Shown: positions 37,324 to 61,420 of the stretch, piece by piece
Layout of the letters: each line of letters begins with the position of its first letter
Numbering within the stretch: the stretch's first letter is position 1
DNA from: an uncultured Bacteroidales bacterium
Lineage (GTDB): Bacteria; Bacteroidota; Bacteroidia; Bacteroidales; Muribaculaceae
Reading direction: 5' to 3'
NCBI GenBank assembly: GCA_902793405.1
Contig: CADBDH010000017.1
Coordinates: 22,679 to 86,678, forward strand
DNA: 64,000 nucleotides
Translations under genes and position numbers: made by a program
Notes under the pieces: model-generated
Database searches by the model: none
The model's input: only the letters and a program-made list of their open reading frames with translations
Told to the model about the DNA's origin: nothing

Positions 37324-37396
37324 GGAGTAATGACTGTTAGCTTGGGGGTGGCTCACCCCACCCCCAATATGAATGATAATTAAAATAAAAAGCATT

Positions 37397-40790: not shown

Positions 40791-41198
40791 TTAGAAGTCA
40801 TATATTCTGTCAATGATGCCTCGATTGCTTGATTGGTTAGACCATTGGACTTGCCAGCAACGACCATCGATAGTATCAAGCAAAATAAACGTGTACATGT
40901 TCTCTGTTGGATAGAGTGTAAAACGACCGTTAACCTTTTCGTCACCAGCACTGACCAAAACTATATCGTTAAGGACTACGCCTAAACGATTGCTGTTATC
41001 GTTGATGGCATACTGGACTTGCCACATTTCACCAGTCTGGGTGTTGAGCTTGATGAAGTTCCACATGTTCTGTGTTGGGTACAGTTGGAACTTTGCGCTC
41101 GGGTTCTCACTATACTTCGGCGGTTTACTCGATGATGATTGAGCGAAGCAGCCGATAGAAATAATAGCAATCGCTAAAAGTGTTACAATCTTCTTCAT
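40791..41198 (-). CDS. small secreted protein with an internal duplication
   Basis: A 135-residue exported protein (signal peptide 1-19, LLAIAIISIGCFAQ). The mature part consists of two related units: FQLYPTQNMWNFIKLNTQTG followed by EMWQVQY (about 38-64), and FTLYPTENMYTFILLDTIDG followed by RCWQVQW (about 93-119). Each looks like a beta-hairpin with WQVQ. The architecture recalls small secreted sensor or inhibitor proteins, but no family is recognised. It lies 18 nt after the 234-residue gene and 5 nt before the 84-residue one. Confidence 0.65.
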   Translation of the reverse strand: MKKIVTLLAIAIISIGCFAQSSSSKPPKYSENPSAKFQLYPTQNMWNFIKLNTQTGEMWQVQYAINDNSNRLGVVLNDIVLVSAGDEKVNGRFTLYPTENMYTFILLDTIDGRCWQVQWSNQSSNRGIIDRIYDF

Positions 41199-41216
41199 AT
41201 TCGTATTCTTTTAATG

Positions 41217-41921: not shown

Positions 41922-41944
41922 AAATTTATCCTTTTAATACACCA

Positions 41945-41979
41945 CAAAATTGAGGTATAACTGTGCGCCCTATCTGCAC
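41945..41979 (-). promoter_or_regulatory. island promoter element, copy B
   Basis: Plus-strand GTGC-GCCCTATCT-GCAC at 41963-41979, and CAAA (TTTG in minus) at 41945-41948 with 14 bases between, the same spacing as copies A and C. It precedes the 41,921 start by 42 nt. Confidence 0.7.
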
Positions 41980-42005
41980 AGCAAAAGATATTAATCTATT
42001 ATCGA

Positions 42006-42686
42006 TTATTCTTTTTCAAAAGAGTTGAAATCTTCTTCAGGAACGTCTAAATCAAAACCGTGCTTAAGTGCATGTGCTTTCCCAACTAGTGCAAATTCCT
42101 GCTGATCTTTTCCAAGCATATCCCAACTGATGAAGGTTTTTACTTCAACGAAAAAACCTTTTGGGTTGTTGCATAAGCACAAACCATTATTGCATGTCAT
42201 CCAATAATCATTTGGATATTTCGCACTTTCTATTCTCAATCGCATAGATGATGCCTTAAGATTATTGAAAATGTATTTGTCTATTACCTCTGGTTTGCTA
42301 AGGGTAGGATCTTTTAAATATCTTTCATTATATCGATCAAAGAAGTGAGGTATAAAAACACTATAATGCCATACTCTTTTCTCCAACCTGGAATACGTTA
42401 ATAAGTATATTCCTCTGTTCTTTCGGAACCACGCATAATAGAAAACACCTAATCTTTTGTGTCTAGGATAATTAATACCATCGTCATAACAACATATGAC
42501 AATATGAAAGCCTCGGTTAGATTCATAACGTATCGGATTGAAGTATTTTCGCTCAGTGTTTCGTCGGTTTCTTATAATACGTCGATAATCTTTCCCAGCT
42601 TCACCAATCTTTTTTAAGATTACAGGCTTCTCTTCTTTTTCAAAAAGCATGATAATCTCATCATATGTCATTGAATCAACAATCAT
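42006..42686 (-). CDS. protein of unknown function ending the defence operon
   Basis: A 226-residue soluble protein paralogous to the following gene (see shared motifs there; here HFFDRYNERYLKD, KYPNDYWMTCNNG, ISWDMLGKDQ). It follows the SprT-like gene by 20 nt and so belongs to the large operon, whereas its paralogue starts a new operon with its own copy of the shared promoter. It is rich in Arg/Tyr and basic in the N-terminal half (DYRRIIRNRRNTERKYF). Function unknown. Confidence 0.6.
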   Translation of the reverse strand: MIVDSMTYDEIIMLFEKEEKPVILKKIGEAGKDYRRIIRNRRNTERKYFNPIRYESNRGFHIVICCYDDGINYPRHKRLGVFYYAWFRKNRGIYLLTYSRLEKRVWHYSVFIPHFFDRYNERYLKDPTLSKPEVIDKYIFNNLKASSMRLRIESAKYPNDYWMTCNNGLCLCNNPKGFFVEVKTFISWDMLGKDQQEFALVGKAHALKHGFDLDVPEEDFNSFEKE

Positions 42687-42706
42687 ATTACTTGTGCCAT
42701 AAGTAT

Positions 42707-43396
42707 TTATTTCTTTTCTCTGATAATATTCTTGCCGTCACATTGCAGTTCTTCAGCTCCACTTAATTCCTTATCTAATTCTTGTTGTTCCAGGAAATAA
42801 ACATTGAGTGCTGCCGAATTTGGATAGCGGTTGAAGAAGGGGTTGTTACACATGTACAATTTTACATCTTCAACTTTGGCGTTAGCTAGCATTTGATTAT
42901 AATAACCAGTGATTCTAGGAAGGATTCGAGGCAGCACCTTGATACCTGTTTTTCCGTCTTTCAAAGTTACAACGGCAATCACATGCCATCTAGGACGTTT
43001 ATCAATAGCCTCTTCTTTTTGTTCGTCAGTTCCGTTATGTGAGATTGTTATGTGCCTCCCGTATTTCTCGTTGATTTGATTCATAATACTGACAAACAAC
43101 TGCCCATGTGATGATGTGTCTTCGAGTTGGTTCACGCCAATGAAGTAGTGAATCATCTCGTGAAGAATAGTATCTTCGACAACTTCTTCAGGTAGGTCAA
43201 TCCGGGTGTTTATGCGCAATTGGAAATCGTATTTTTCCTTCTTACCATTAGGCAAGGTACGTGTCTTAGACACCACTTGGCCTAAAAACGTTTTTGCGTC
43301 GCTCAACTGAATGGGAAGCTTGGGGAGTTTTCCAGCAAAGCAGAGCTGGTTGAACTCCTCAAACTTCTTTTCAATATAGGGTATGGTAGCACGCAT
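42707..43396 (-). CDS. SprT-like zinc metalloprotease
   Basis: A 229-residue protein. Its first half is a SprT-like (Spartan-type) domain: KKFEEFNQLCFAGKLPKLPI at the start and the metal-binding HEMIH at residues 79-83, with a third ligand probably in TSSHGQLF. Spartan proteases digest proteins crosslinked to DNA. The C-terminal part (100-229) carries no zinc finger that I can see. The gene follows the Z1 gene by 3 nt, so translation is coupled. A role in removing DNA-bound proteins during the action of the neighbouring helicase/nuclease proteins is inference. Confidence 0.7.
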   Translation of the reverse strand: MRATIPYIEKKFEEFNQLCFAGKLPKLPIQLSDAKTFLGQVVSKTRTLPNGKKEKYDFQLRINTRIDLPEEVVEDTILHEMIHYFIGVNQLEDTSSHGQLFVSIMNQINEKYGRHITISHNGTDEQKEEAIDKRPRWHVIAVVTLKDGKTGIKVLPRILPRITGYYNQMLANAKVEDVKLYMCNNPFFNRYPNSAALNVYFLEQQELDKELSGAEELQCDGKNIIREKK

Positions 43397-43399
43397 CGC

Positions 43400-46300
43400 T
43401 TATTCTGCTTCCTGGCTTTCTTCATCTTGGAAGATTGCAGCCCAATCGATACTGTTTTTGCGCAATTTCAACACCTTTTTGATGGCATAAACGATAATCC
43501 ACTGACAATAGGTTTCTTGATCGTCTTGTGCAACTTCCTTTAAGTCAGCATCAATAATAGTGTCTCGGGTGTTGATAAGTTGGTTCTCCGTTTCTGCATC
43601 TAGTAAATAGCCATTTGAATCTATCTTTCTTTCGAAATCAATCTTCCATTCTGACGGTTGTTTCAATTCAAGTAAAATCTCATCAGCAGTAGCATCGCGC
43701 TTTGTACGAAGCAACATATATTTATAGGAGCGTAAAACAAACGGGAATTGCCCCTGATTATAGGAATAAACTCCATGCCAATTATCTTCATCGATGTATA
43801 TACCTGGAATACGTTTGAAATTGCCTCGATCATCTTTCTCCAGGAATTTAGCAGCTGTTGTTTGCTTGATAGCGCGAGTTTCTATAGGACAATCATCTTG
43901 ATAGGAGTAATCAGCTCCTTCGGGGCCAAATGCCATTTCTACATCACTATCGAAAGTGAGATTTACCACCTCACTCGGATCGATGTCATCAAGAATGTCA
44001 GAACGCTTAACGGCTACTTCACCTTGGGCTTTTTGGTCTATCGCGAACATGGCAGGAGATACGTTTTGCTGTGCAAGCAGAACTGGCCAATAAAACGGGG
44101 CATTATTCCAACCCACATTTTCTCCAGTCTGTTGATCAATGTTCTTCTCACCTTTCTCCTTGATGAACATCAGCAAGGGGTTATCGACTGCTTTTGCGCG
44201 AGCGGGTTTCAAATCAGTGCGACCATCATCAGGAGCATCAATAAAAGCTCCATTCTGTCGAATACGATTCAGTTCACGGTCAACTCTGTGTAGTGCAAAT
44301 AGTTTTCCATCTGTTCCTTCCAAGCATCGATGCAAGGCGCACATCATTTCTTTAATGTCGTTTTTGTGATGCATGTTATAGAACTTAGGATCATAAACGT
44401 ATGTTGACTCAATCAACTCCAATATTTCTTGAGCCAAATCACGATCTATGGTAAAGATACCATCTTCATCTTGGTTGTGATAATCTGGGCTTTCAGTGAT
44501 GAGTCTGTCGATTTTTTCTATCGTCTTCGAAATTGCAGTTTTATATCCAGTCCAAAAGCCAGACGGAACGAAACGTTTTTGTGGCTTAATTGTGAGAGCA
44601 TTTGAAGCCTTAATCTTTGATGTTGCACAGGGCTTAATATGCTTATCAAAGCCGATAAACACAGCATTAGGTTCTTCTTTATCCTTACCAGAAATAAACC
44701 ATTGACGCAACTGTTCATCAAGCTCGTTTATTCTCACCAGAATAGAGTGAATATCCGATGTGGTATGTAAACGAGTTACAGCCATATCCTCTTTAGAACG
44801 TGCGCCGTACATTCGAGCGTGCTGAAGTACGGTATCTTGCTGGAAGTTCTTGGGATTACGACCATAGAAAAAGCAAAGCATGTTCTTGATAGTTACACCA
44901 CGGTCAAGGATATTGCCACCGATGAAAATATTGGCTGCTGTATCAAGACGAAGCTCGCCACTTTCTTCATTCAGCAATGAGTCCATTTGCTCGTCACTAT
45001 TAACGAGTTGTACATGATAATTTTGTTTCTTGGGATTGAAGATGTCGCGGATTTCATCCAGCACTTCTTCTTTTGATGGCAACTCAACTGTTATCAGCGG
45101 TTCTGGCTGTTCTTTAGTTTTTGCTCGTCCTTTTGTATTTGCATCAACAAAGTCCTGATAGTTCACATCAATAGCGGTCCAAATACGCCTGTCTAATTGA
45201 TCCTCATTAACAATGACATCCTTAATGGACTTGATGAGCCGTTTAATGAGAGCTTGTTGCCATTCATGGTTTTTCTTATCGATCTCAACATGGAAGACTG
45301 CACTAGATCGGTAGTCTTTATTCTCATTTTCCCTTACTTGTATGCGCCTAATGGCAGTTGCCATAAAAAATGACACAAGAGCGTATGTTAGACCATAAAT
45401 ATTGCCACTTGAAATGCCTTCTTTGAGATAACGTCTATCTACTTTACCCATCACTTCAATACACTTTTGTTCTACTTGATGGAACAAATGACTGTACATT
45501 GAATTCGGATTTTGAGATTTAAAGAAATACTCATCACCGCCAATGTATTTGTCATGCACAGGTACCAGGCTTGTAAAACGAGGACGGAATGGCTTTACAA
45601 AATTGCCATTCAGATTCAGTTCACCCGAAGGCTGCAAGTAGAGGCAGTATGGTGTTGCCGTTACTTGCAGGTATCGGCACCATTCCGGCACCTTGCGGAA
45701 GTCGTCAATCTGCTGGCTAATCTTTGCCATATCAAGCTCTCGTTTTTGGCGCACTGGATTGCCGTTTTCATCAAGTATCTCTTCAGGCTTGACGGCACGA
45801 TAGTTGCGACTGGCAAAGTCTGCCTCATCATCAACAATGAGCACTTTCTTTTTCTTTAAGAAAGGACTCTTTGACTCAAACAGATTTATAAGATGATCAA
45901 GATTTCTTGCATTCTTTTTGCACACAATCACAATCTTGCCATTAGCTTGAGTACGCTTCAAGCCGCTCTTGATCTTCATGATATCATAGATATTGATCGT
46001 TGCACGTTGTGCAAGGTCATCACTCTCTTTAAAGAAACGGTAATCATGCTTACTGCGCATGATAGTCTGATTGACAAGCGCCTTCGTCCCTTTAGTAATT
46101 ATTATAGCAATGTCAACACCACGATCAAAAGAAAGACCGATAATATCTTCAAATGTATCGGTTTTACCACACTGGATTTTACCAAGGAGCAATCCTGGTT
46201 CCTCTGCGCGAGGGCCTTCTTCAAGGAGTTGATCCACTGTACTCTCCACACAATCAATTTTCTCTTGTGGCATCGTGCCATACGGATAATGGGCTTTAAG

Positions 46301-46474
46301 GGTACTCCAGATAGGAGTATCAGAATTTGTTGCCTCTACTTTTGTTCTCTCAGCTTCTTCAAAATCCTCAAGCTGTTCAAGCATCCAGTCAAAAGGCTCT
46401 ATACCGGCCAATCTGAGTGCATCAATTGCGGCGAGACATTCTGCTTTAGTTTCGTAATTTCTTTTTGCTGCCAT
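43400..46474 (-). CDS. Z1-domain ATPase of a defence-type module
   Basis: The 1,024-residue protein has a superfamily-2-like ATPase core: a Walker A GKIQCGKT at residues 98-105, Walker B-like VLIVDDEADFAS near 212, and a Z1 domain from about 510 (IFIGGNILDRGVTIKNMLCF, then QDTVLQHARMYGARS). Z1 domains occur next to GHKL-ATPase proteins in restriction-type neighbourhoods. The enzyme may be a helicase or translocase partner of the adjacent PD-(D/E)XK protein and the GHKL/SF1 fusion. It lies 20 nt after the nuclease gene. The remaining C-terminal 400 residues are not recognised. Confidence 0.75.
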   Translation of the reverse strand: MAAKRNYETKAECLAAIDALRLAGIEPFDWMLEQLEDFEEAERTKVEATNSDTPIWSTLKAHYPYGTMPQEKIDCVESTVDQLLEEGPRAEEPGLLLGKIQCGKTDTFEDIIGLSFDRGVDIAIIITKGTKALVNQTIMRSKHDYRFFKESDDLAQRATINIYDIMKIKSGLKRTQANGKIVIVCKKNARNLDHLINLFESKSPFLKKKKVLIVDDEADFASRNYRAVKPEEILDENGNPVRQKRELDMAKISQQIDDFRKVPEWCRYLQVTATPYCLYLQPSGELNLNGNFVKPFRPRFTSLVPVHDKYIGGDEYFFKSQNPNSMYSHLFHQVEQKCIEVMGKVDRRYLKEGISSGNIYGLTYALVSFFMATAIRRIQVRENENKDYRSSAVFHVEIDKKNHEWQQALIKRLIKSIKDVIVNEDQLDRRIWTAIDVNYQDFVDANTKGRAKTKEQPEPLITVELPSKEEVLDEIRDIFNPKKQNYHVQLVNSDEQMDSLLNEESGELRLDTAANIFIGGNILDRGVTIKNMLCFFYGRNPKNFQQDTVLQHARMYGARSKEDMAVTRLHTTSDIHSILVRINELDEQLRQWFISGKDKEEPNAVFIGFDKHIKPCATSKIKASNALTIKPQKRFVPSGFWTGYKTAISKTIEKIDRLITESPDYHNQDEDGIFTIDRDLAQEILELIESTYVYDPKFYNMHHKNDIKEMMCALHRCLEGTDGKLFALHRVDRELNRIRQNGAFIDAPDDGRTDLKPARAKAVDNPLLMFIKEKGEKNIDQQTGENVGWNNAPFYWPVLLAQQNVSPAMFAIDQKAQGEVAVKRSDILDDIDPSEVVNLTFDSDVEMAFGPEGADYSYQDDCPIETRAIKQTTAAKFLEKDDRGNFKRIPGIYIDEDNWHGVYSYNQGQFPFVLRSYKYMLLRTKRDATADEILLELKQPSEWKIDFERKIDSNGYLLDAETENQLINTRDTIIDADLKEVAQDDQETYCQWIIVYAIKKVLKLRKNSIDWAAIFQDEESQEAE

Positions 46475-46494
46475 AATATAATTGGTTTATAGAT

Positions 46495-47490
46495 TTATAT
46501 TCCGTCATGTAGCACGTTTTGCTCAAAGGAATGCCAGCGATACCAGATGGGTAGGTGGTATGTCTCTCTCAGCATTTTCATATATGCCTTGTCCTGTTCA
46601 TCTGGTTTTTCGGGGCCAATGATGAACAGTTTTTGCGCCCTTGTCTTTGATGGATAATGGGCATACTCGAGAATTTGACCTAAGGCCTCACGGATGCAAC
46701 GCTTGGCCGAATAGGTCTTGAACTCGAAGTAATGCCACGTGTCATCACCATCTTTAGGCTGACCTTTCATGTCAACATGATCCTTTTCGAAATACAGATG
46801 CACATAGTCTTTTTCCAGCAATGCTTTTACTGCATTCTGCATCTTCTTGTGCATCGGATTTATGAGGATATCACCAGCCTTGTTGCTGCGCCAAAACTCA
46901 AAAGTATTGAGAGTTTGGCAGTTGCCATCTTCATCAAGTTCAAACTCAAAGTCACTACGTTTATCCATCAGATTGTAACGATGCCAAATGCTATCACTCT
47001 TGATGATGGGCGGGTTTGACAAGTTGATCTCCGCTTCAGAAAACTTAAACTTGACATTAAACAGGAATTGTGGATAGAAGCCCCTAACAATGCCACCAGC
47101 AAGGATGACTTCATCTTTCATCTCTTGAAGCCATCCATTCGCTTTATACAATTTGAAGATTCTTTTGCTTTCTTCGGGAGTAACGCCCTCCGCGTTTCTT
47201 AGGCAACCTATATATACTTTCCGATTGTCTGGTGAAATCGTAAAGAGATGTATATCATAGACCTTGCCAATATGCACTTGAGCATTCATAGGCTGAAGGA
47301 ATGCAAAGTGATAACCATCAACGATTTTAGATTCATCGAGGAGCCATTCCTCATGACCAAAACCTATCCTGTTTTCATAAGTGCTATCAGAACGTGACTT
47401 ACCCTCACTACCCGATGGGCGCTTCCATTCATGCGTGTTCCAACATATTCGAGCAATCTTCTCCATATAACTGGGTTTGTTATGAGCCAA
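46495..47490 (-). CDS. PD-(D/E)XK nuclease-like protein
   Basis: A 331-residue protein whose C-terminal third carries the signature of a PD-(D/E)XK nuclease: DTWHYFEFKTYS (E-x-K of the active site, about 245-256), then the helix IREALGQILEYAHYP with the QxxxY motif known from RecB-like nucleases; HVDMKG just before could give the catalytic aspartate. The N-terminal two thirds are a beta-rich region that may recognise DNA (about 40-200). It overlaps the end of the GHKL/SF1 gene by 11 nt, so the two are translationally coupled. A role as the cutting subunit is inferred. Confidence 0.65.
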   Translation of the reverse strand: MAHNKPSYMEKIARICWNTHEWKRPSGSEGKSRSDSTYENRIGFGHEEWLLDESKIVDGYHFAFLQPMNAQVHIGKVYDIHLFTISPDNRKVYIGCLRNAEGVTPEESKRIFKLYKANGWLQEMKDEVILAGGIVRGFYPQFLFNVKFKFSEAEINLSNPPIIKSDSIWHRYNLMDKRSDFEFELDEDGNCQTLNTFEFWRSNKAGDILINPMHKKMQNAVKALLEKDYVHLYFEKDHVDMKGQPKDGDDTWHYFEFKTYSAKRCIREALGQILEYAHYPSKTRAQKLFIIGPEKPDEQDKAYMKMLRETYHLPIWYRWHSFEQNVLHDGI

Positions 47491-50400
47491 TCTGAATATC
47501 TACTGAATTCTCGTCAACACGGATTTCGTATAAACAGGTTGGTTTAGTATATACATTGGCGAGTTGATGTGAGGTTACAAAAGTGTTCGACTCCAAATAG
47601 TGTGCTTTGCCGAATACAATTTTCTCTACTGTAGTAGCAGGTATAATACCTGTCATTTCCTCGTATTTTTGGGATGAAATAGAAACAAGTCGGTTTATTT
47701 TATCTAAGTATTCATACCCCTGACAATTCTGTTTGTCAGGCAGGAATACAATCAGATAATCTTTAGCGCGACTAATGGCAACATTGATAATATTCAGCTT
47801 ATTGAGGTGAATATTTGAAGCGCCATACCTCAAACCCACAGGAGGATTGAATAAGGCTATTACAATGTTGCATTGATCACCCTGGAAACTATGTATAGTT
47901 CCTGTGGTGATTTTAACACCATCAGGTAGATTCTCTACTTGCTCAAGCATCTTCTCAATGAGTTGCGCTTGAGAAGCATATGGACATATTATACCAACAT
48001 CGAGATCCTCTTCATTAGGATTTCTCTCAGCATATTTCTTTGCAATGAATTTGCTAAGTTCTGTAGCTAGTAGAGCAGAGTAAATATGTATTGGAGACTT
48101 CGATAGTTTCTTTGCCCCATACATACTATCAAAGCTTTCTACCTTAAATGGGATATAAGTGACCGATTTCAACGGCAACTCTGGTATATTGAGTAATCGT
48201 TGGTCACTATCTTTCCAATGGTGCTTGAGACGACCTTCATAAGCAAAATCGCTGAACAAATGACCGATTGACGGGATGGCTCGGTACTGAGTTTCAAGGT
48301 TCGTGATCTTGAACTGAATAGGTTCTGTTGTTGGGTTCTCAAATGATTTGAGGTTTACCATATCATAGATGTTTTCACTATTCCAGTTATCAGTAACGTC
48401 AATCGGAGCAATTTGCATCGGGTCTCCGGCAATAAGGAACGGTACATCTTTGAATTTGTAAATTGCATAAGTGATTTGAGCAATAGGGAGCATTGATGCT
48501 TCATCGCAAATGACGAGATTCCAGTCAATGTCTCTCAAATTATGATATCCGTCCTCAGTCTGGAAGCCATCATAGGGCAATCTTGCCATAGTGGTCACGA
48601 TGCAGCATTTGTTTTCTTTGAACAGTTCTGAATTTCTATCACATACAAGACCATTATCCTCAATCTCAGTATCACCCGTTGTCACAAATCGTCCGAGCCA
48701 AGCATAGGAGTCGTCTGCTTCCATGATTTTCTTGACTAAGACATCGCAAGCCTTGTTCGTTGGAGCAAGAACAAGAATTCTTGCATATGTTCTTTTCGAA
48801 TGGATGTAATCGATGATATGTTTGGCAACAAAGGTTGTCTTGCCTGTGCCTGGAGGACCAAAAACAAACGAGATATTGTTTCTTAAGTTTTCCTTAAGAT
48901 TATATCCACCGGGCAGTATTAACTCATTGAATGCCCGCCTGAAATTATCAACCAGATTCGTCGGGTTGTTGATATCTATCGAAGCCTGAGTGAAATTCGT
49001 CCAATCAATTGATGACAAGCATTCTGCGTCACTTGCTTTTGCCTTAAGTCTCAATGAGAAATCCCTAACATTTGCGACCTCGAATGAGCATTGTAATTCA
49101 TCCCTATCATTAAATAGGAATTTCACGGTTAAACCTTCTATTTCTTCGACCCAGACAGGAATCTCTCTGGACGGATTTCTTAACTCATATAATCTATTAT
49201 TGCTGTTGTCAATAATAATCTTGCTGAAAGATAAAGAAATAGATCGTTTTAGAGAGCTACTAAAATCCGATTCAAACGAGTCCCAGTATTCCAGCTGAAG
49301 TTTCTTTTGGAACCATTCCTTTGTATATTTTGGAATATCTTCAACCTCTTGCTTAAGCGTCTCTCTTTTTAGTTTCTTTTCTTTATCATCATCAAGTCTT
49401 TTTAAGATGTCTTCTATTCTTTTTTGATTAGAACTAGAATCCGTGGATTTCTTATTGATTGACGATTCCGTGTTTCTTGATTTAGAATCGCCATATAAAT
49501 CGCTAAGAGTTGAAGACTCCTTGCCTGATGAAGAACCATATGTATCAAAAGATGAAGTTCCTGAATTTGATGAATCAATAGTATCGCCTCGATGATTCAG
49601 AACATTTCGGGCCCTTTGCTTTAGTTCCTCTGATTTTTTATACTCTTTAAGTATCTCCTCTAATTCCTCTTTTGTAGATACACCATAATCTTCAGCTAGC
49701 GCACCCCATTCTTGCTGGCGCTGCTGCTCTTCGGTTGCACCTAAATCACTAAGTGGTTTCACACGTTTTTGTATTCCAAGGAGCCTAAACAATTTTTCGT
49801 TCCTTTCATACCCAAGGTTCACCATTTCTTCTTGTGTGATCTCTTTTGCAGAACACGGACTTCCTTTTGAATTGACAAGCCACCTCTTATTCTTGAGGCC
49901 ATCAAAGAGTGACGTTTCAAAAGAGGCATTTTTTTCTGAATAATAGAAATACTCGTACCCGCCTTCTTTATAGTTCTCTATATCATCGACTTGTGATAAT
50001 ACGTTCCACAAGTATATAGAAGATGCTTGGTTAAGATTATTGTTTATGAAATGATTAAATCCTTCAAGACAATAATCCATGATACCATATCCTTGTGTAG
50101 AATACTTGAACTCAACTTTATTAATTCTATTCTCGTTAAAGTAATATCTGTTTGGATAATCATCTATTATGCGTGGAGCTTTTTCAACACCAAGTTTTAA
50201 AAAGAAAGAGGTAATCGCATCTTTGGTTTCCTTATTTTTGCCTTGAGTATAGAACGAGAGATCAAGAAAGGCCACGTCGTTATTGCCTCTAAAATACTGG
50301 CTCAGCTCAATAGACCAAATATACAGCCTCCATGTGCGATAGAATGATTTGTTATGTGCCAAAAAATGCATTCTATCTTTTATCATCTTCAGGATTTCGT

Positions 50401-52270
50401 TCTTGCGAAGATCATCTTTTTCCTCTTTGTAGATCTCAAAAACTGTATTGAAGTCCGAAATGATTTCTGCATGCTGTAATTCATTAATCCTATTCTTATC
50501 TTGGTATTTAGGAATAATATGCTTTTGCAGGAAATCAATAATATCTGGTTTATTAATGCCAAGTTTCTTATAAAACCCTTTTAGGTCTTCATCATCCTCG
50601 TCGATTAAGGACTGATGTACAAAGTTATATGTACCTTTTGCGTCACCTATAGGCAGATAGATGTTGGGCTGCTCTTCATGCGCGATCATTTTGAACGGAG
50701 CAACCCATTCATTCCTTTGGGTTAAGAATATCGGTGAATATCTAAAAACTGCATTTCGTCTATATCTCTGATCCCACAAACGAACTGCATCTTCTTTTAG
50801 GTATTTGTATAATCTCTTGGCCCAATCAGTTCCTTGGTTTTGCATAAATGTGGGAGTAATGCTCTGAGCTAGATTTTCAGGTTCAAATTGATTGATGCCA
50901 AGATAATCGCTAAGAAAACTACGCAAGTCGCTATTTTCTTCAATCTTAAGAATGCCTAACTTATCGTCTTGAAGCAGTTCCCTTAATTGCGCTGTCTTAA
51001 TAATGTTTTGAAGTTTAGCGGTGGAAAAGAAACAAGCGTTGCCAATAGTAACATAACCTTTTGTTGTTGTGTAAAGCAAGGCTTGTTTTTCCAACAATTC
51101 TTTTATCGCCTGAAGGAAAAACATCTTACACGCTTTTTCGGTCTGGAACTCAAACTCATACATCGATAGATACCGATAGTAATCACTATACGGCAAGAAA
51201 CCATACAAATTATCTGTGAGTAGATGTTTGCCGTTCTTATTATATTTCTTGATGATTACTAAAGCGCCAGCAGCAAGATCACCAATCGCACGAAGAAGTT
51301 TTTTATTGAAGTTATCACGAGTAATATTTTGCCTATTATTCGTCAGCAGAAATGGAGCATGCGAGATGAAACACAGTCCAGATGTTTCACTAGTTGGGAA
51401 GAAACAATGAATGCCTCTTGAAATTGAAGTGTCGATTTCACCTTCTTTGTTGAAGAAATATCCTACGGACACCTTCAACTTCATTCCATCCGAATTAACG
51501 AATCGATGGAACAGAAGCAATTGAGACTTTGCATCACCATCTTCAACAAGTACATACTGATATGTTATATCACCAGTTTTTTTTGTTTCAATCACATCCT
51601 TAACAAAACGTAAAGATTTACCGGAAATGTCGTCTGAAAAACTAACAGAGACCAGGGTTTGAAGAAACAATGTTGGCGCTTGCAGGGACATCAACTTGTC
51701 TGAAATCTCCTTAATGGGAGTACCAGGTTTGAAGGGAAGCACAAAGAGGGTTTCACCATGCTTGCGCAATTCGTGATCATGTTCCAACAAAACTGGTACC
51801 ATTCGATCTTCTATGGCAAACCAAAATTTGTCATCATAGATTTCTGGACGATCAGTATATGTATAAACGGACTTAAAACCTAAACCAAATTTTCCAATCG
51901 TATTAGGTTCATTTTCTTTCGATGAACTATAGGCTGTGATTGAATTGATATCACCGTAGGGATCAGGTTTAACCTTTTGTCCGAGTTCACCATCTTCAGT
52001 GATAGTGAACTGTCGTTTACCATTATGGACAAAAATCAAGAATTCTTTATACAGATGAAACGATGCTTTAGTAGCTTTAGCATCATCTGCATTTTGCAAT
52101 AATTCATACACGAAATGAGCTGGATCTGGGTAGATATCAGAAGAGCCTCTTATCAAGCCGCTCATGCTATGATCCGTCATATTGAGGGCTTGGATTTTAC
52201 GTTTCTCTATTAATTTATCGAATAGGAATTTTTCTTGTTCGGTTAATCGGTTACTCATATCCGTTCCCAT
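47480..52270 (-). CDS. GHKL ATPase fused to SF1 helicase (sacsin-like N-terminus)
   Basis: The 1,596-residue protein joins two ATP-using modules. The N-terminal GHKL/HSP90-type domain (about 30-200) shows FVYELLQNADDAKAT and the lid motif TIGKFGLGFKSVYTYT, as in sacsin-like proteins. A long linker follows, with a Ser-rich low-complexity part (about 895-960) and a coiled coil. The C-terminal 480 residues are an Upf1/AAA_11-like superfamily-1 helicase: FGPPGTGKTTFVAKHI near 1,138, LVICDEASMLPIA near 1,250, GDPMQIAP, TIHSFQGDQCNIV and NVAISRAKDYLIVF. Such fusions are found in anti-phage neighbourhoods. The start may be at 52270 or at the Met four codons later. Confidence 0.8.
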   Translation of the reverse strand: MGTDMSNRLTEQEKFLFDKLIEKRKIQALNMTDHSMSGLIRGSSDIYPDPAHFVYELLQNADDAKATKASFHLYKEFLIFVHNGKRQFTITEDGELGQKVKPDPYGDINSITAYSSSKENEPNTIGKFGLGFKSVYTYTDRPEIYDDKFWFAIEDRMVPVLLEHDHELRKHGETLFVLPFKPGTPIKEISDKLMSLQAPTLFLQTLVSVSFSDDISGKSLRFVKDVIETKKTGDITYQYVLVEDGDAKSQLLLFHRFVNSDGMKLKVSVGYFFNKEGEIDTSISRGIHCFFPTSETSGLCFISHAPFLLTNNRQNITRDNFNKKLLRAIGDLAAGALVIIKKYNKNGKHLLTDNLYGFLPYSDYYRYLSMYEFEFQTEKACKMFFLQAIKELLEKQALLYTTTKGYVTIGNACFFSTAKLQNIIKTAQLRELLQDDKLGILKIEENSDLRSFLSDYLGINQFEPENLAQSITPTFMQNQGTDWAKRLYKYLKEDAVRLWDQRYRRNAVFRYSPIFLTQRNEWVAPFKMIAHEEQPNIYLPIGDAKGTYNFVHQSLIDEDDEDLKGFYKKLGINKPDIIDFLQKHIIPKYQDKNRINELQHAEIISDFNTVFEIYKEEKDDLRKNEILKMIKDRMHFLAHNKSFYRTWRLYIWSIELSQYFRGNNDVAFLDLSFYTQGKNKETKDAITSFFLKLGVEKAPRIIDDYPNRYYFNENRINKVEFKYSTQGYGIMDYCLEGFNHFINNNLNQASSIYLWNVLSQVDDIENYKEGGYEYFYYSEKNASFETSLFDGLKNKRWLVNSKGSPCSAKEITQEEMVNLGYERNEKLFRLLGIQKRVKPLSDLGATEEQQRQQEWGALAEDYGVSTKEELEEILKEYKKSEELKQRARNVLNHRGDTIDSSNSGTSSFDTYGSSSGKESSTLSDLYGDSKSRNTESSINKKSTDSSSNQKRIEDILKRLDDDKEKKLKRETLKQEVEDIPKYTKEWFQKKLQLEYWDSFESDFSSSLKRSISLSFSKIIIDNSNNRLYELRNPSREIPVWVEEIEGLTVKFLFNDRDELQCSFEVANVRDFSLRLKAKASDAECLSSIDWTNFTQASIDINNPTNLVDNFRRAFNELILPGGYNLKENLRNNISFVFGPPGTGKTTFVAKHIIDYIHSKRTYARILVLAPTNKACDVLVKKIMEADDSYAWLGRFVTTGDTEIEDNGLVCDRNSELFKENKCCIVTTMARLPYDGFQTEDGYHNLRDIDWNLVICDEASMLPIAQITYAIYKFKDVPFLIAGDPMQIAPIDVTDNWNSENIYDMVNLKSFENPTTEPIQFKITNLETQYRAIPSIGHLFSDFAYEGRLKHHWKDSDQRLLNIPELPLKSVTYIPFKVESFDSMYGAKKLSKSPIHIYSALLATELSKFIAKKYAERNPNEEDLDVGIICPYASQAQLIEKMLEQVENLPDGVKITTGTIHSFQGDQCNIVIALFNPPVGLRYGASNIHLNKLNIINVAISRAKDYLIVFLPDKQNCQGYEYLDKINRLVSISSQKYEEMTGIIPATTVEKIVFGKAHYLESNTFVTSHQLANVYTKPTCLYEIRVDENSVDIQIGS

Positions 52271-52322
52271 TTATATCAAGTGAGGATTGCGGAGAATGTT
52301 TCACAATCCACACAATGTTGTT

Positions 52323-55300
52323 TTATTTATCTTCGGCTGCCACAGATAAGTCGTCACTGAATTCGTTGTAAGTGAATGACGGCTGCTCATGTGCGGCCTC
52401 GGCAATCTCCAGGTCAGTGATGGATACGCCGGTTACGTAGAGGTACATCGCAACCACGATGTTGAGAGCGGCGTTTATTTCCTGCTCTGATGTCGTCGGT
52501 GCAGTATGCGCCTGGTCGTTGCGCCAAGTAGTCACCATATTGAGGAATTGGGCATACTTGCGCTGCTCATCACTGTTGTAATTGTCGTGATTGAACGCAT
52601 TGCGAAGTGTTCTCAATTCACGTGTATAATGTACAGCGTTGCCCAATGTCACAGGCTTACCGTCTTCGTTGCTCATTTCCTCGTTATTGATGAGGTAGTA
52701 GAGTTTCTTGAGATAGACCTCATATTTGGTCACGAGGGAGTTGAAGCCTCGCACCTTGTCCACCATGCGTACATCGGGATTGGCATAGATGTCGTTGAGA
52801 TCGTTCTTCACAATTTGGTCGATACCGTCCAGTGACGGAATACTGGTCTGGTTGAGGACGTCAAACATCACGTCCACAAACTCCTCAACGCTGCGGTTAT
52901 GGCTGCACACGTCTGAAAGCATTTCGCTCATGGCTGCAATGATGCGCTCTTTGAGTGTATCCTCGTCATACTCGAGACGTGTCGCATGACCGGTGCGTGT
53001 CGATAAAGCCTCAACAAATTTGGCGATGAGAGTGAGCGACAGACTTTGCTCGCGTTCCAGTACCTCGGCGAAGTTGTAGTACTTCTCGATTTGGGCGGCA
53101 ATCTTCTCGTCAAACTTCTCCTTGACGAGGTTGATCATTACGTCAAACGTGTTGTTGGCATTGAAGGCATCGTTGATTTCGGGATCGACAAGCAGTTCCT
53201 CCCAGATCTGCTTTAATATCTTGTCGTTCTCATCAAGGAACTGCTCCCAGGGGCTGTTCACGATGTCGAGAATCTCTTTGATGCTAAGTTTCTCGTCCTC
53301 CTGTTTCTGACCCACGTCACCGATACGGCTGCTCTTGAGGTGCTGCTCCTCATCTTTGAGTTCAAGCTGGCCTTCGTAACTCATCTGGATACGCAACTTA
53401 TTCAGGTCGATGCGCTCAAGGATCTCCATGGGCAGGGTTTCCTTCGTGTAGGGCAGGAACTTGTAGAAGATTTTGCAGAATACATAAAACTTCTCCAGGT
53501 CGGGATCAATAAAGTCCATCAGCTGAGCCATGAAACCATACTGGCGCACATAGCGGTTGACCAGCTTGCGGTACCTATCCTTGACTTCATCCTCAAGTGG
53601 CTCGACTCGATCTTCAACGATGCGCTTCAAGATGGAGGGAACTTGCTGAACCTTGTCAGGATCTATCATGCCTTCGGCCACGGCGTTGACTTCGTCATCA
53701 TTAAAGAGATTGAAGGCTTCAACATCGTCTTTAAGCGAGTAAAGCCGCTGGGTATCCACCTCACCTTCAAGCGTGGTTTCTGTGTAATATTCCTGAAACG
53801 ACTTCTGGATTTTATTCACGTCGTTACGGAAGTCTATCACCATGGTGTCTTCCTTGCCTGGGTAGCAGCGGTTGAGACGAGATAGCGTCTGGATACACTG
53901 GATGCCGCCCAGAGAGCGGTCAACATACATCGTGTGCAGCAGCGGCTGGTCGAAGCCCGTCTGGAACTTCTCGGCGACCACTAGTATCTTGTAGTCATCC
54001 TCCATGAACTTGATGCGGATGTCATCGTCCTTGACGTGATCATCGTTCATGCTGGACTCACTGCAACGGCGGCCATGGCTGTCATCTACTTCGCCTGAGA
54101 AAGCCACCAGCGTCTTGATTTTGCCGTCATACTGGTCAGCAATCAGGCGGTCAAGTAGCTGTTTGTAGTCGGCTGCTGCCTGGCGCGAATCGGTCACGAC
54201 CATCGCCTTGGCTTTCTTGCCGATCTTGTTGATGGTATGATGCATGAAGTGGTCAAGCATCATCGATGCCTTACGCAACTTGATGTACATATTCTTGTTC
54301 AATTCGCCATAGATGACGCGAAGCGACTTCTTCTCCTCAAATAACTTGTCCGGATCATCTGCTCCCTCCTTCTCGATGTACTCAAACATCGTGACATAGC
54401 TCTTGATGTTTTGCAAGACATCGAGGATGAACTTCTCGTCGATTGCTTGCTTCATTGAGTAGAGGTCGTGGGCTTTACCCTCAGAATTGCCATAAAGGGC
54501 AAAGGTTTTGTCCTTTGGTGTAGCGGTGAAAGCGAAATAGCTGATGTGCTTCATCATGTGGCGCATGAGCTGGGTATAAGCCATGAGCGCATCCATGTCG
54601 CTGTCATAGACACTGGGGTCAAAACCCTCAACGGATTTCAAGTCCTCATCGGTCGAGAGGGCGTTAATAAGGTCTTTTGCACTCTCGTTGCCGATGGCGG
54701 TGTGTGCCTCGTCCACGATAATGGCATACTTGCGGTGCTGCTCACGTTTCAAGTCCTTGAGAGCAAAAGCGAACTTCTGCACCGTCGAAATGATGATGCG
54801 GTGTCCCTCATTCAAGGCGGTAGCCAGGTTCTTTGAGCCACGGCGAATATCCTTGACGGTTCCGGCTACAGTCTGGAAGTTCACCACGTCGTCTGCCATA
54901 TTGCGATTGAGCACGATGCGGTCAGTGACCATGATGATGCTGTCAAAGATGGGAGTGCGGTCAGGATTGGTCATATTGGCTAGCTGATGAGCCAGCCATG
55001 CCATCGACTTGGTTTTGCCAGATCCAGCCGAATGTTGAATAAGGTAGTTGTGACCAGGACCATCTTCACAAACCATGCGACGTAGCTTGCGCACTGCTCT
55101 CAGCTGGTGGAAGCGAGGGAAGAACACAACGGGTTTATTCTTCTCGTCATTCACGCGCTTGAAGAAGTTTTCGATAATGTCAAGCAGTGAATCAGCACCC
55201 AAAATGTTGCTCTCGGGTTCACCCTCGACAGGACGATACATATAGGCTGTGGCATATTCTCCATCAATGGGAGGATTCACGCTCTCGCGGTTGAACGGCA

Positions 55301-55955
55301 AGAAACGTGTGTTCTCACCATCGAGTTTCGTGGTCATGAACACATAGTTGTTATCCATCACGAAATGAACGAGGCAGTTCCTGAGCATTCGGTTCTCGGG
55401 GTTACGCTCATAGCGGTACTGATATATGCCATGACCGTAGTTCTGGCTTGTGCCCTCGTTCTTGAGTTCACATGTGAGCAAGGGAATACCATTGATGAGG
55501 ATGCACAAGTCAAGCTCTGCAAGATTCTCCTTTTTGCTGCCATAGGTCGTGGACGCGGTACTGTAGTGCATCTGACGCACAACGCTGAAGCAGTTCTGGC
55601 GGTAAAGCTTGTAGGGAGCGCTTTCGGGGCCGTCAAGCACGGGCTTGAACTGCACGAGTTTCACCTTGATGCCCTTGATGGTAAGACCTTTCAAGAGCAT
55701 TGTGAGGATGCTTTCGCCACGATTGAGTTTCTTGTTATACTCATTGATGACGGTTTCTACCTCCTGGCCAGGGAAAGCGTGTGCGAGTTGTATCCACGTC
55801 TTGGTTTGGGCCTTTAAGAAGCGTTCCAGCATCTCCACGTCGCACAGCTTCTCAATATTAAACTGTGCACTGGTTCGCTGGTTATACAGGTCGCCTTGCG
55901 CCAGGCACTCGGCAATGTGTTCCTCAAATCTCGTCTCGTTCAATAAGTTTTCCAT
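52323..55955 (-). CDS. hsdR: Type I restriction enzyme R subunit
   Basis: HsdR is the ATP-driven translocase and nuclease of Type I restriction. The 1,210-residue protein has an N-terminal nuclease domain (about 140-170; LAELDLCILINGIPLLTCEL with the D..ExK pattern completed by K), an SF2 motor with SAGSGKTKSMAWL near 308, VDEAHTAIGNES near 410 and QTGFDQPLLHTMYVDRSLGG, and a long C-terminal helical region that docks on the methylase. It is the fifth gene of the WYL-led operon; the GHKL/SF1 gene follows 52 nt later. Confidence 0.93.
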   Translation of the reverse strand: MENLLNETRFEEHIAECLAQGDLYNQRTSAQFNIEKLCDVEMLERFLKAQTKTWIQLAHAFPGQEVETVINEYNKKLNRGESILTMLLKGLTIKGIKVKLVQFKPVLDGPESAPYKLYRQNCFSVVRQMHYSTASTTYGSKKENLAELDLCILINGIPLLTCELKNEGTSQNYGHGIYQYRYERNPENRMLRNCLVHFVMDNNYVFMTTKLDGENTRFLPFNRESVNPPIDGEYATAYMYRPVEGEPESNILGADSLLDIIENFFKRVNDEKNKPVVFFPRFHQLRAVRKLRRMVCEDGPGHNYLIQHSAGSGKTKSMAWLAHQLANMTNPDRTPIFDSIIMVTDRIVLNRNMADDVVNFQTVAGTVKDIRRGSKNLATALNEGHRIIISTVQKFAFALKDLKREQHRKYAIIVDEAHTAIGNESAKDLINALSTDEDLKSVEGFDPSVYDSDMDALMAYTQLMRHMMKHISYFAFTATPKDKTFALYGNSEGKAHDLYSMKQAIDEKFILDVLQNIKSYVTMFEYIEKEGADDPDKLFEEKKSLRVIYGELNKNMYIKLRKASMMLDHFMHHTINKIGKKAKAMVVTDSRQAAADYKQLLDRLIADQYDGKIKTLVAFSGEVDDSHGRRCSESSMNDDHVKDDDIRIKFMEDDYKILVVAEKFQTGFDQPLLHTMYVDRSLGGIQCIQTLSRLNRCYPGKEDTMVIDFRNDVNKIQKSFQEYYTETTLEGEVDTQRLYSLKDDVEAFNLFNDDEVNAVAEGMIDPDKVQQVPSILKRIVEDRVEPLEDEVKDRYRKLVNRYVRQYGFMAQLMDFIDPDLEKFYVFCKIFYKFLPYTKETLPMEILERIDLNKLRIQMSYEGQLELKDEEQHLKSSRIGDVGQKQEDEKLSIKEILDIVNSPWEQFLDENDKILKQIWEELLVDPEINDAFNANNTFDVMINLVKEKFDEKIAAQIEKYYNFAEVLEREQSLSLTLIAKFVEALSTRTGHATRLEYDEDTLKERIIAAMSEMLSDVCSHNRSVEEFVDVMFDVLNQTSIPSLDGIDQIVKNDLNDIYANPDVRMVDKVRGFNSLVTKYEVYLKKLYYLINNEEMSNEDGKPVTLGNAVHYTRELRTLRNAFNHDNYNSDEQRKYAQFLNMVTTWRNDQAHTAPTTSEQEINAALNIVVAMYLYVTGVSITDLEIAEAAHEQPSFTYNEFSDDLSVAAEDK

Positions 55956-55982
55956 ATCTATATCTATCGGGATTTATTAACG

Positions 55983-57005
55983 TTATTCTTGGCTGTCACT
56001 CGTATCGTTATTTTTCTTTTTGCCTTTTTTATTCAGTTCCTTGATGGTATCAAAATAGGCTTGTTCCACAGGCGAAAGTGTATGTTCACGCCACTCATCA
56101 TATTCTGCCTTGGCTTTTGCCATGGCCTGATCGTGGCTTACACTGCCACCATCATTCAGCAATTCCTGTCCTGTGGATGAGAGAATAGTGTCAAGATGCT
56201 TAATATAATCAGCCATATACATTGGACGATGCCTCATCGCCTGAATCTCGGCAAAATCAAAATATCCCGAGACAAGGTTGTTCAAAACTTTCAACTCTTC
56301 TTGTGAAAGATAATTCTTGGCAATGCGCGCATCCTGCAGTGTTGGCCAATTTCCCCGAAAAGTGGTCATGCCCATAAATGGCTTTGTACTGTCAGCTCTA
56401 TCATAGATGACTTCGGCTGCAGTATGACCATGAGCGGCGTAGTGCAGTTTATTTTGTACAATCTTGAAAAATGCGACCGAGATGTTGCTGCGGGGGTCAT
56501 AATCCACGGCTGTAGCATACAGGTCGAGCACCTGGCGATAAAGGACACGCTCCGATGAACGGATGTCACGAATGCGGTCAAGCAGTTCTTTCCAGTAATT
56601 GCCACCGCCCAGTTGCTTGAGCCGTTCATCATCCATCGTGAACCCCTTGATGATGTATTCCTTGAGCCGTTCGGTGGCCCAGCGACGAAAGTGGGTGGCG
56701 ACAATGGAGTGGATGCGATAACCCAGCGAGATGATCATATCGAGATTGTAGAAGGGGATTTCACGAGTCACTTGACGATTGCCTTCAGTTTGAACCTGTC
56801 GGAATTTCCGACAAGTTGACTGCTCGTCGAGCTCACCCTCCTCATAGATATGCTTAATATGCTCTACCACATTAGTTCTCGATGACTGAAAAAGCTCTGC
56901 CATCTGCTGCTGTGAGAGCCATACGGTTTCATTTTCGACGCGAACCTCAATATGGGTTTTGCCGTCCTCACTCTGATAAATGATGATATTGCTATTATTA
57001 TCCAT
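55983..57005 (-). CDS. RhuM-family protein inside the Type I system
   Basis: The 340-residue protein matches the RhuM family, common next to Type I restriction genes in gut bacteria: ETVWLSQQQMAELFQSSRTN near the start, RKFRQVQTEGNRQVTREIPF, YNLDMIISLGYRI, HFRRWATERLKEYIIKGFTMDD. The family has been linked with toxin-like or Fic/DNA-binding roles, but its action in restriction systems is unknown. It sits between hsdS and hsdR with gaps of 32 and 27 nt. The C-terminus is a basic Lys/Asn tail. Confidence 0.85.
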   Translation of the reverse strand: MDNNSNIIIYQSEDGKTHIEVRVENETVWLSQQQMAELFQSSRTNVVEHIKHIYEEGELDEQSTCRKFRQVQTEGNRQVTREIPFYNLDMIISLGYRIHSIVATHFRRWATERLKEYIIKGFTMDDERLKQLGGGNYWKELLDRIRDIRSSERVLYRQVLDLYATAVDYDPRSNISVAFFKIVQNKLHYAAHGHTAAEVIYDRADSTKPFMGMTTFRGNWPTLQDARIAKNYLSQEELKVLNNLVSGYFDFAEIQAMRHRPMYMADYIKHLDTILSSTGQELLNDGGSVSHDQAMAKAKAEYDEWREHTLSPVEQAYFDTIKELNKKGKKKNNDTSDSQE

Positions 57006-57037
57006 TGTTTATCTTATTATCTTCAGTTTCCATCTTA

Positions 57038-58336
57038 TCAACATACTTTGCGCTTGCCCGTCACCACCTCTGTAATGACGCTTTGGCGCAACTCTTGCAA
57101 CAATTCTATCTGCCGCTCAGCTTGTTGGAGTGCATGATCCACCTTGCCGGTCTCGCGCTCAATGTGAGTAACGATTTCACGCTGCTCAGAATATGGTGGG
57201 AAAACAACATGGAAATTCTTCAAATCCTCCATATTTACAGCAGGAAATGTTGCCGTTCGAGTCGTAGTTTTACAATACTCATCAATTACAAATAAGTAGT
57301 AGAAAAAATAGTCTTGACACAAGGCCTCGTTCAACGATTTACGAATCTTTAAATTCGTAAATCGTTGATTCGCAAGCGAATCAACAATTAGCAGGGCGTG
57401 CTCACCAATTGTCGCTGTTGTGGCTAAAATGAAACTTCCTGCTTCAAAAAGGCCTCCGCCTTTGACGGCTTCTTCGGTAATATATTGTTTTGCTGCATTT
57501 AATTTGCGTCCACTTTCTCTTATGTCCTCCATTCGATACCAAGGAATTACTCCATTCTCCCAAAAATCGGGATTTGCTTTCGAAGGAGTATATCCGTTTC
57601 TCAATTCACAAACAAATCTAAGACGCAGATCGCTCCAGTGGGCTGGGATTTGGCCAATCCAGTCGATGCCTGAGTCACGGAGGGGGACATCAGGATTGAT
57701 GCCTCGGGTGACGGCTCGGGTGATGATGCTTTGGCGAAGTTCCTGCAACAATTCAATGCGACGTTGCTGGGTTGCTATCAGTCTGTCAATCTCCTCACAT
57801 TTCACATCCAGCCACTCCGCAATCGCCTTCTGCTCCTCCAACGGAGGCAAGGTCAGTTTCACGTTTGAGAAATCATTTGCTGAAATCTCTTTAAAAGTAG
57901 CACCAGAACCCAGTAAATCAAATTCTTCTGTAAAAACACTTGTTAAATAATAGAAAAATAAAGTGTTTACATTTTTAGGGACGCATGATAAACAACCCTG
58001 ATTCGTGCATAATTCTGTTTCACTTATTGCAACTGTACCAATAGGTGCTCTTTTGGAAAACACAAGACTCCCTTTGGGAACAAGTTGCGTATTACATGAA
58101 TCATAGCCCTTTTTTGATATTGATCTTTGTCCTTGGCTAATAAACTTATCTTCTGATTTGTAGTCAGCAGGAGTTATCCAGACTATATTTCCATCCCAAT
58201 AATCTGCAATCTCGGTTTTTGGTGTTGCGCCTGCATAGATTGAGAAATCATACTTTAGTTTTACCATTCCCCAATGGCTCGGTATTTCTCCAATCCACTG
58301 CACACCGCTGTCCTTATATGATTCGTATCGTTTCAT
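57038..58336 (-). CDS. hsdS: Type I specificity subunit with two target-recognition domains
   Basis: HsdS reads the DNA target of the Type I enzyme. The 432-residue protein has two target-recognition domains (about 1-165 and 210-385), each introduced by DSGVQWIGEIPSHW or DSGIDWIGQIPAHW and each closed by a conserved helix (QRRIELLQELRQSIIT; ERQIELLQELRQSVIT). The near-identical conserved regions make the two halves exchangeable by recombination. It starts 3 nt after the hsdM stop. No second specificity gene or recombinase is in the window, so phase variation is not shown. Confidence 0.92.
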   Translation of the reverse strand: MKRYESYKDSGVQWIGEIPSHWGMVKLKYDFSIYAGATPKTEIADYWDGNIVWITPADYKSEDKFISQGQRSISKKGYDSCNTQLVPKGSLVFSKRAPIGTVAISETELCTNQGCLSCVPKNVNTLFFYYLTSVFTEEFDLLGSGATFKEISANDFSNVKLTLPPLEEQKAIAEWLDVKCEEIDRLIATQQRRIELLQELRQSIITRAVTRGINPDVPLRDSGIDWIGQIPAHWSDLRLRFVCELRNGYTPSKANPDFWENGVIPWYRMEDIRESGRKLNAAKQYITEEAVKGGGLFEAGSFILATTATIGEHALLIVDSLANQRFTNLKIRKSLNEALCQDYFFYYLFVIDEYCKTTTRTATFPAVNMEDLKNFHVVFPPYSEQREIVTHIERETGKVDHALQQAERQIELLQELRQSVITEVVTGKRKVC

Positions 58337-58339
58337 GGC

Positions 58340-60400
58340 TTAATCGATAGAGAGTTCTGCAATTTCCTTGTCCATCTGGGCATCGAGTGCTGCGAGTTCC
58401 TTGAGGATGTCCTCACTGCTGCGCAGGGGACGATAGACGTAGAACAGGCGGGTGAAGGGGAATTCCACACCCAACTTGTCCTTGGAGCGATCCATCCAGG
58501 CATCAGGAGCGTAAGGCAGCACCTCACGCTCGAAGTACTCGTCAATGTCCTGCTTAGCGGGAATCTTCTCGGTATCGTTGAGGGCAGTATCTGCTACCAT
58601 GCCACTGTTCTCATCGCCAGGCGTGTTGTAAACGATGGGAGCGTTCTCATCGGTGGTGCCCAGCACACGCAGTTTCTTGGCCTGGGTGGCGGTGACTTTT
58701 TTCTTGCCGATGAGTTGAGCCACGATTGCCATAAACTCGGCATCGGTGCGCTGCACGCTATCATCATAGTCGTTGAAGATGGTCTCGAACAATTCCTTAT
58801 CACCCTTGGCAATCTTGCCATCTTCCTGCATTTGCCTGATAGTGTCTTTCACCCCGTTGTAGTATAGGCGTAGCGAGCGGCGCGTGCTGACGGTCGTATA
58901 GCGGAAGTCGTCATAATCGAGCAACTTAGCGATTTCAAGGTGCTCCATGTCGCCGGTCTTCTCGTTGCGGATGTCACGAGAGCAAGATTGATAGGCCCGA
59001 TAGATGTCGAGGATGTCGGCAGCGCCTTCGTCGCTCACCTCGTATCGTTTCTTACCCAGGTTCTTCTGGAGCAAGTGGGTGTACTCGCTGTGTGCCGCGT
59101 CAATAAACAGCACCTTGTCCCGGCGCTTGGCTGGGCGGTTGTTATCAAGTATCCACAAATAGGTACTGATGTCGGTACCGTAGAAAAGACTCTTGGGCAA
59201 GGCAACGATACAGTCAAGCAGATTGCGGTCGAGCAGCATCTTGCGGATATTGCTCCAGCCACTGCCGGCATCACCATTGAACAGAGGTGAGCCGTTGAGG
59301 ACAATGCCGATGCGAGAGCCACCAGCATCCATCTTGCTGATCATGTGCTGGAGGAATAGCAATGAGCCATCGTTGGTACTGGGCAAGCCTGCCTCAAAGC
59401 GACCACCTGGACAGTTATCGTCCTGAACACGCTTCTTGACACGTTCGTCCTTGCCCCAATCCACACCGAAGGGCGGATTGGCCAGCATAAAGTCGAAAGA
59501 CTTGCCGATGAGCCGGTCGTTACCCAGGGTGTCGCCCTGGAATAATTGCTCGTCCAGATTCTGGTTATCGCCCTTCATCAGCAGGTCACTCTTGCAGATG
59601 GCGTAGGTCTTCTCGTTGAGTTCCTGCCCGTAGAGATAAACCTTCATATCGGGGCGGCCCGAGAGTTCCTCCAGATATTCCTTGCAGACGGTGAGCATTC
59701 CACCTGTACCACAGCAGGGGTCATAGACGGTGAAGTGCTTGCCGTATTCATAGAGCTTGCTCTCTTGTCCGCACAAAGTGAGAGACACAAGCAAGCGTAC
59801 AATCTCTCGAGGGGTATAGAACTGACCCGCCTTAGTGTTGCTAGCCTCCTTGGAGCGGCGAATGACAATTTCGAATACTGTTCCCATCATGGCATTGCTC
59901 ACCTTGTCGGGATGCAGGTCGGCACGCTGTACAAACAGTTGGATAACCGAGAACAGCTTGTCTCCACGCTCCAGACGGGAGTAGATGGGTGACAGGTCAA
60001 CAATCTCGCTGTCGGTATCGCTGTGAACAAAGTTGGCGAGAATATCCTTCACATTATCGGTAAAGCCGTTTAGATAAGTTTCAAACGACTGACCGATTTG
60101 TTCAGGAGCGCCTAAGAGTCTCTCAAGTGACAGCCCAGATGAGTTAAAGAACGAGAGGTTGTTCTTCTTCATCAAGGCTTTGAGCTTGAATTTGCGCATA
60201 TTCTCAGGGGTGTCCTTCAGTTCCTGCATAATCGCCTCGCGCTTGTCATCAAGCACGCAATCAAGGCGGCGCAGGAGTGTGAACGGCAAAATTACATCCT
60301 CCACCTCGGCATCGTCATAAAGGTTGCGGATGATCTCCTTGATATCCCAAATGATGTTGGCCAGTTCTTGCTCACGTTGTGTATTCTGTACAGTAGCCAT
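58340..60400 (-). CDS. hsdM: Type I DNA methylase M subunit
   Basis: HsdM makes N6-methyladenine at the target read by HsdS. The 686-residue protein has an N-terminal helical domain (1-150), the SAM-binding motif YDPCCGTGGMLTV near 225, and the catalytic LANPPFGVDWG near 306. A C-terminal extension (about 520-686) reaches beyond the core, as in several Bacteroidales HsdM proteins. It follows the WYL gene by 9 nt, so regulator and methylase are translated from the same message. Confidence 0.93.
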   Translation of the reverse strand: MATVQNTQREQELANIIWDIKEIIRNLYDDAEVEDVILPFTLLRRLDCVLDDKREAIMQELKDTPENMRKFKLKALMKKNNLSFFNSSGLSLERLLGAPEQIGQSFETYLNGFTDNVKDILANFVHSDTDSEIVDLSPIYSRLERGDKLFSVIQLFVQRADLHPDKVSNAMMGTVFEIVIRRSKEASNTKAGQFYTPREIVRLLVSLTLCGQESKLYEYGKHFTVYDPCCGTGGMLTVCKEYLEELSGRPDMKVYLYGQELNEKTYAICKSDLLMKGDNQNLDEQLFQGDTLGNDRLIGKSFDFMLANPPFGVDWGKDERVKKRVQDDNCPGGRFEAGLPSTNDGSLLFLQHMISKMDAGGSRIGIVLNGSPLFNGDAGSGWSNIRKMLLDRNLLDCIVALPKSLFYGTDISTYLWILDNNRPAKRRDKVLFIDAAHSEYTHLLQKNLGKKRYEVSDEGAADILDIYRAYQSCSRDIRNEKTGDMEHLEIAKLLDYDDFRYTTVSTRRSLRLYYNGVKDTIRQMQEDGKIAKGDKELFETIFNDYDDSVQRTDAEFMAIVAQLIGKKKVTATQAKKLRVLGTTDENAPIVYNTPGDENSGMVADTALNDTEKIPAKQDIDEYFEREVLPYAPDAWMDRSKDKLGVEFPFTRLFYVYRPLRSSEDILKELAALDAQMDKEIAELSID

Positions 60401-60409
60401 ATATAGATT

Positions 60410-61420
60410 TTATGTGTTATATTGTTGTTGCATTAGTTCTATCTTTTCTTTGATTTGATTGCGGAAAGCCTCAGGTTCCAGCACTTCGAGGTCAGGCCCG
60501 AAGGAGAGGATTTGCTGCTCCAGCTCGTTGTTGGGACGCACCTCGATAGAGAGGATGCACTTCTTGCGATCCTCGATAGACAACGAAGGATGGATGGGCT
60601 TGGAGAGAATGTAAGGTAAGCGCCGTTCGTTGGTACGCAAAAGAATCTTTTGTTTCTCGCCGTGATAAGGCACGGTAACGCCTACCACATCATCAAAGTA
60701 ATGTTCAAAGTCGATGTCCTCGTTGACCTTGAATGTCATTTCAGGCATCGGCTCAATGCTCAGACAACGATCGAGAGCCAGGTTGTTGACATACTGGGTG
60801 GTCTCATCATAGCAGAAGGCAAACCAGCGGTTGTTGTACTGCTTGAGGTAATATGGATGGACGACGCGAGTCAATTCCTCACGTCCCTCCTTGTAGCTTC
60901 GATATTGCACTTTGAGCGCAGTGTGGTTGGTTGCAGCATCAATGAATGTACCCAGGTGCTCCAAGCCCTTGAGTAAAGGATTTTGCTCGAAGCACACAAG
61001 TCCTGTATTTCTGCCGTCCAAATTAAAACGCTGTTCTAGATTTGTGATAACCTCCTCGATCCATTCATACTGTGGCAGGCCACGGAAGCGGGTGAGTGTC
61101 ACAACAGCTTGCTGTAGCTGCTGTGCTTCTGCCTTGCTAATAGGTTGTTGGTTGATGCTGAAATCGGGATTAGCATAGCGGTAATAGACCTTCTTGCCGC
61201 TGTGAAGTCTTTCGAGCTCAATTGAATATCCAGCGTCACTCTCCATGTAGCGGATGTCGTCAAAGATTTGGCGACGGCTCACACTTCCCTCGAAATTGAA
61301 CGACAACAAAGCATCTTGACAGGCCTGCATGAGGTCGTCAATAAAGTAGCGACGTGTTTTGTCACGGAAGCAGCGGTCAAGCGCTTGATATCGAATGTTT
61401 GCGTTCTTGTTAATTGGCAT
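60410..61420 (-). CDS. WYL-domain transcriptional regulator of the defence operon
   Basis: A 336-residue regulator with an N-terminal winged helix-turn-helix (about 20-75, SVSRRQIFDDIRYME), a central WYL domain (about 140-225; LKVQYRSYKEGREEL then HPYYLKQYNNRWFAFCYDE) and a WCX-like C-terminal region (about 240-330). Proteins of this build, such as BrxR and CapW, repress phage-defence operons and are thought to respond to nucleic-acid or nucleotide ligands. As first gene of a ten-gene operon with a repeated operator-like element upstream, it most likely autoregulates the unit. Ligand unknown. Confidence 0.85.
   Translation of the reverse strand: MPINKNANIRYQALDRCFRDKTRRYFIDDLMQACQDALLSFNFEGSVSRRQIFDDIRYMESDAGYSIELERLHSGKKVYYRYANPDFSINQQPISKAEAQQLQQAVVTLTRFRGLPQYEWIEEVITNLEQRFNLDGRNTGLVCFEQNPLLKGLEHLGTFIDAATNHTALKVQYRSYKEGREELTRVVHPYYLKQYNNRWFAFCYDETTQYVNNLALDRCLSIEPMPEMTFKVNEDIDFEHYFDDVVGVTVPYHGEKQKILLRTNERRLPYILSKPIHPSLSIEDRKKCILSIEVRPNNELEQQILSFGPDLEVLEPEAFRNQIKEKIELMQQQYNT

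Follow-up and report, generated by a model that had tools for sequence, protein, structure and literature searches.

The restriction operons of the MORC/paraMORC group bring together a GHKL ATPase, a DThhQXuRhFG helicase and a nuclease of the restriction endonuclease (RE) fold (Iyer, Abhiman and Aravind 2008, PMC2292703). We examined a 64,000-nucleotide stretch from an uncultured Muribaculaceae bacterium (contig CADBDH010000017.1, positions 22,679 to 86,678; hereafter the window), in which a Type I restriction-modification (R-M) operon holds the same three components, the RE fold being recognized from a motif and a weak fold match. Unlike in the published operons, the GHKL ATPase is of the sacsin type and fused to a superfamily 1 (SF1) helicase, the methylase is a Type I HsdM, and an SprT protease is present in addition. 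Together with a Spartan-like protease and a probable DNA cutter, two ATP-driven motors form a block that is probably a second line of defence, exchangeable and little described. Its genes are:

47480..52270, minus strand: first block gene, fusion of a sacsin-type GHKL ATPase with an SF1 (Upf1/Sen1-like) helicase (Pfam SACS 9.7e-15, AAA_12 4e-20)
46495..47490, minus strand: PD-(D/E)XK-type nuclease-like protein of 331 residues with a conserved N-terminal domain (RICWN...GFGHEEWL)
43400..46474, minus strand: third block gene, between the nuclease-like and SprT genes, labelled a Z1 ATPase in the original prediction
42707..43396, minus strand: SprT/Spartan-like zinc metalloprotease (SprT-like domain with HExxH and a third His)

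The GHKL-SF1 protein resembles Tiamat over residues 39-811, which match the PADLOC profile TmtA (1.1e-56), but the match covers profile positions 30-804 of 1302, after which the SF1 helicase takes over. MkoA and MkoC of Mokosh were not matched over their full length, the best stretches being part of the helicase region only. The components of MZA include MutL and AIPR; the operon's match to MzaC (62.6 bits) lies far under the cut-off of 1500, and no Pfam match to AIPR was found among the ten operon proteins, the eleventh gene having been scanned too. In a system bearing BrxC, PglXI, PglZ and BrxA, those genes replace HsdMSR, and no relative of the GHKL-SF1 or PD-(D/E)XK proteins was found within the 22.7 kb of that locus examined. 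A locus like type 3 BREX (L113:3680-9966) has ORF6N and Fic genes between PglXI and PglZ (PADLOC PDC-M59A/B).

The exchanged segment after hsdR

The same draft genome contains a sister operon (G000:C9, L175/L176). Blastn similarity to this contig ends at 52325, the hsdR stop, and restarts at 41199, with C9:68828-81288 occupying the place of the window's segment. There, after the same WYL-HsdM-HsdS-HsdR chassis, lies Druantia III (DruH3, DruE3), of which no DruE or DruH homologue was found among the ten window proteins scanned. Because a known antiviral system holds the same slot in the sister operon, the block is probably a defence unit; this single clean swap is an unusually direct positional argument, and the window and the sister operon form a ready pair for testing. 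These findings support a general picture in which R-M operons serve as chassis with fixed cargo slots.

41200..52324, no strand: exchanged segment, slot after hsdR (blastn against G000:C9)
42006..42686, minus strand: unknown 226-residue protein inside the segment, listed as tenth operon open reading frame (ORF)
41217..41921, minus strand: unknown 234-residue protein, last gene of the segment, relative of the adjoining 226-residue gene
40791..41198, minus strand: conserved flank, small and probably secreted protein (tblastn 89% identical beside the sister operon; blastn 83%)

The last two genes of the segment are diverged adjacent relatives (26% identity). Profile searches gave no family above cut-off for the 226-residue protein, whose membership in the system is not supported, and no NCBIfam, Pfam or PHROGs match for its neighbour. 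One plasmid relative of the 226-residue protein, in B. finegoldii, stands alone between integrases. Past the conserved flank gene of the sister operon, on the opposite strand, there is a sequence resembling SprT (32% against the window protein; L176:5966-6879 region), seen as two ORFs at the end of the contig.

Proteins of the block and their possible roles

The solved relatives of the GHKL-SF1 protein are sacsin at the N-terminus and the Nam7/Sen1/UPF1 helicases at the C-terminus; among the Pfam, NCBIfam and PADLOC profiles compared, the best families for the GHKL part were sacsin-type (SACS, NF047352) and TmtA.

None of the families in Pfam, NCBIfam and PADLOC matched the 331-residue protein above a cut-off, but E235, D240, E256 and K258 are invariant across five aligned members (an E-D-ExK pattern). 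Its AlphaFold model is of moderate quality (mean pLDDT, the predicted local distance difference test, 57.7). Foldseek searches with the C-terminal alpha-beta core gave weak matches, none at E <= 0.001, with XisH, Nt.BspD6I, Cap4 and the repair endonuclease NucS/EndoMS among the top ranks, all of which we take to have the PD-(D/E)XK fold. The N-terminal domain of the 331-residue protein is a putative reusable recognition module; two loci have it joined to HNH nucleases, and in several it lies beside phage-like genes (L004:13992-15020, L150:2181-4088, L147, L149, L151).

Spartan (SPRTN) is a protease that acts on DNA-bound proteins, and the human enzyme is the best solved match of the window SprT. 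The two share the HExxH...H core, whereas the C-terminal ~100 residues of the window protein have no assigned family. It is a Spartan-like protease with putative DNA binding and DNA-dependent proteolysis. The literature and listings searched held no description of a dedicated bacterial defence role for a Spartan-type protease.

A more far-reaching reading, less likely than not, is that the block makes a distinct anti-phage system, which couples restriction to proteolysis on DNA and is delivered into the slot of a Type I R-M operon as a unit that can be exchanged. The motors and the nuclease would act with the Spartan-like protease, which would strip DNA-bound or crosslinked proteins. Should the protease prove necessary, it would add a DNA-protein-crosslink-type protease to the repertoire of defence, and bacterial attack on the proteins of phage DNA, as well as on the DNA, would become testable. 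It is also conceivable, if rather doubtful, that the block is autonomous and works without HsdMSR, in the manner of the Druantia III found in this slot, with the promoter and the WYL regulator alone in common. A role of the SprT-like protease as effector of abortive infection, cutting host proteins once the motors sense phage DNA, seems improbable: Spartan's known biology concerns proteins on DNA, and no toxin-like features were seen. Cargo without function in this strain is very improbable, with all frames open and catalytic motifs intact.

The restriction-modification chassis

The original prediction described ten ORFs at 42006-61420 on a single strand, with gaps of 3-52 nucleotides or overlaps, and this layout was confirmed. 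Most of its domain labels were also borne out, that of PD-(D/E)XK resting on the motif and weak fold match above; its view of the operon as restriction joined to a second-line module is supported in part. The genes preceding the block are:

60410..61420, minus strand: WYL/WCX transcription regulator, first operon gene (Pfam WYL 1.9e-10, WCX 6.9e-11)
58340..60400, minus strand: HsdM, Type I adenine methyltransferase (Pfam N6_Mtase 1.6e-59; PADLOC MTase_I 6.2e-215; NPPF motif)
57038..58336, minus strand: HsdS, Type I specificity subunit (Pfam Methylase_S 2.2e-52, two stretches)
55983..57005, minus strand: RhuM-family protein, cargo between hsdS and hsdR (Pfam Virulence_RhuM 3.2e-108; PADLOC candidate PDC-S05)
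52323..55955, minus strand: HsdR, Type I restriction/translocase subunit (HSDR_N 7.3e-12; SWI2_SNF2 5.8e-24; D...ELK and DEAH motifs)

The Type I set of HsdM, HsdS and HsdR lies in one operon, each subunit with its own domains and motifs; HsdR scored 201 against TIGR00348 (3.4e-59), below that model's own cut-off of 284.55. The chassis is a Type I R-M operon with predicted methylation and restriction activity. Identities to the sister operon are 81% for HsdM, 88% for HsdR and 42% for HsdS; the two operons probably have two specificities and possibly share subunits. The WYL copy heading the sister operon is 63% identical, and that heading L112 34%. In the HsdS of genome G117 (L178:7020-8324), the two halves that match the window HsdS (65% and 60%) come in the opposite order.

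In the sister operon only 17 base pairs, and no cargo gene, separate hsdS from hsdR. The contents of this slot vary: RhuM in the window, a 205-residue protein (L177:8790-9407), a DUF1016/YhcG nuclease (L178:8337-9527), or nothing, as in the sister operon. Elsewhere in the window, an AAA_25 ATPase gene with a C-terminal helix-turn-helix and weak phage primase/helicase matches (37373-38848) lies near an edge where GC content drops from ~0.58 to 0.45.
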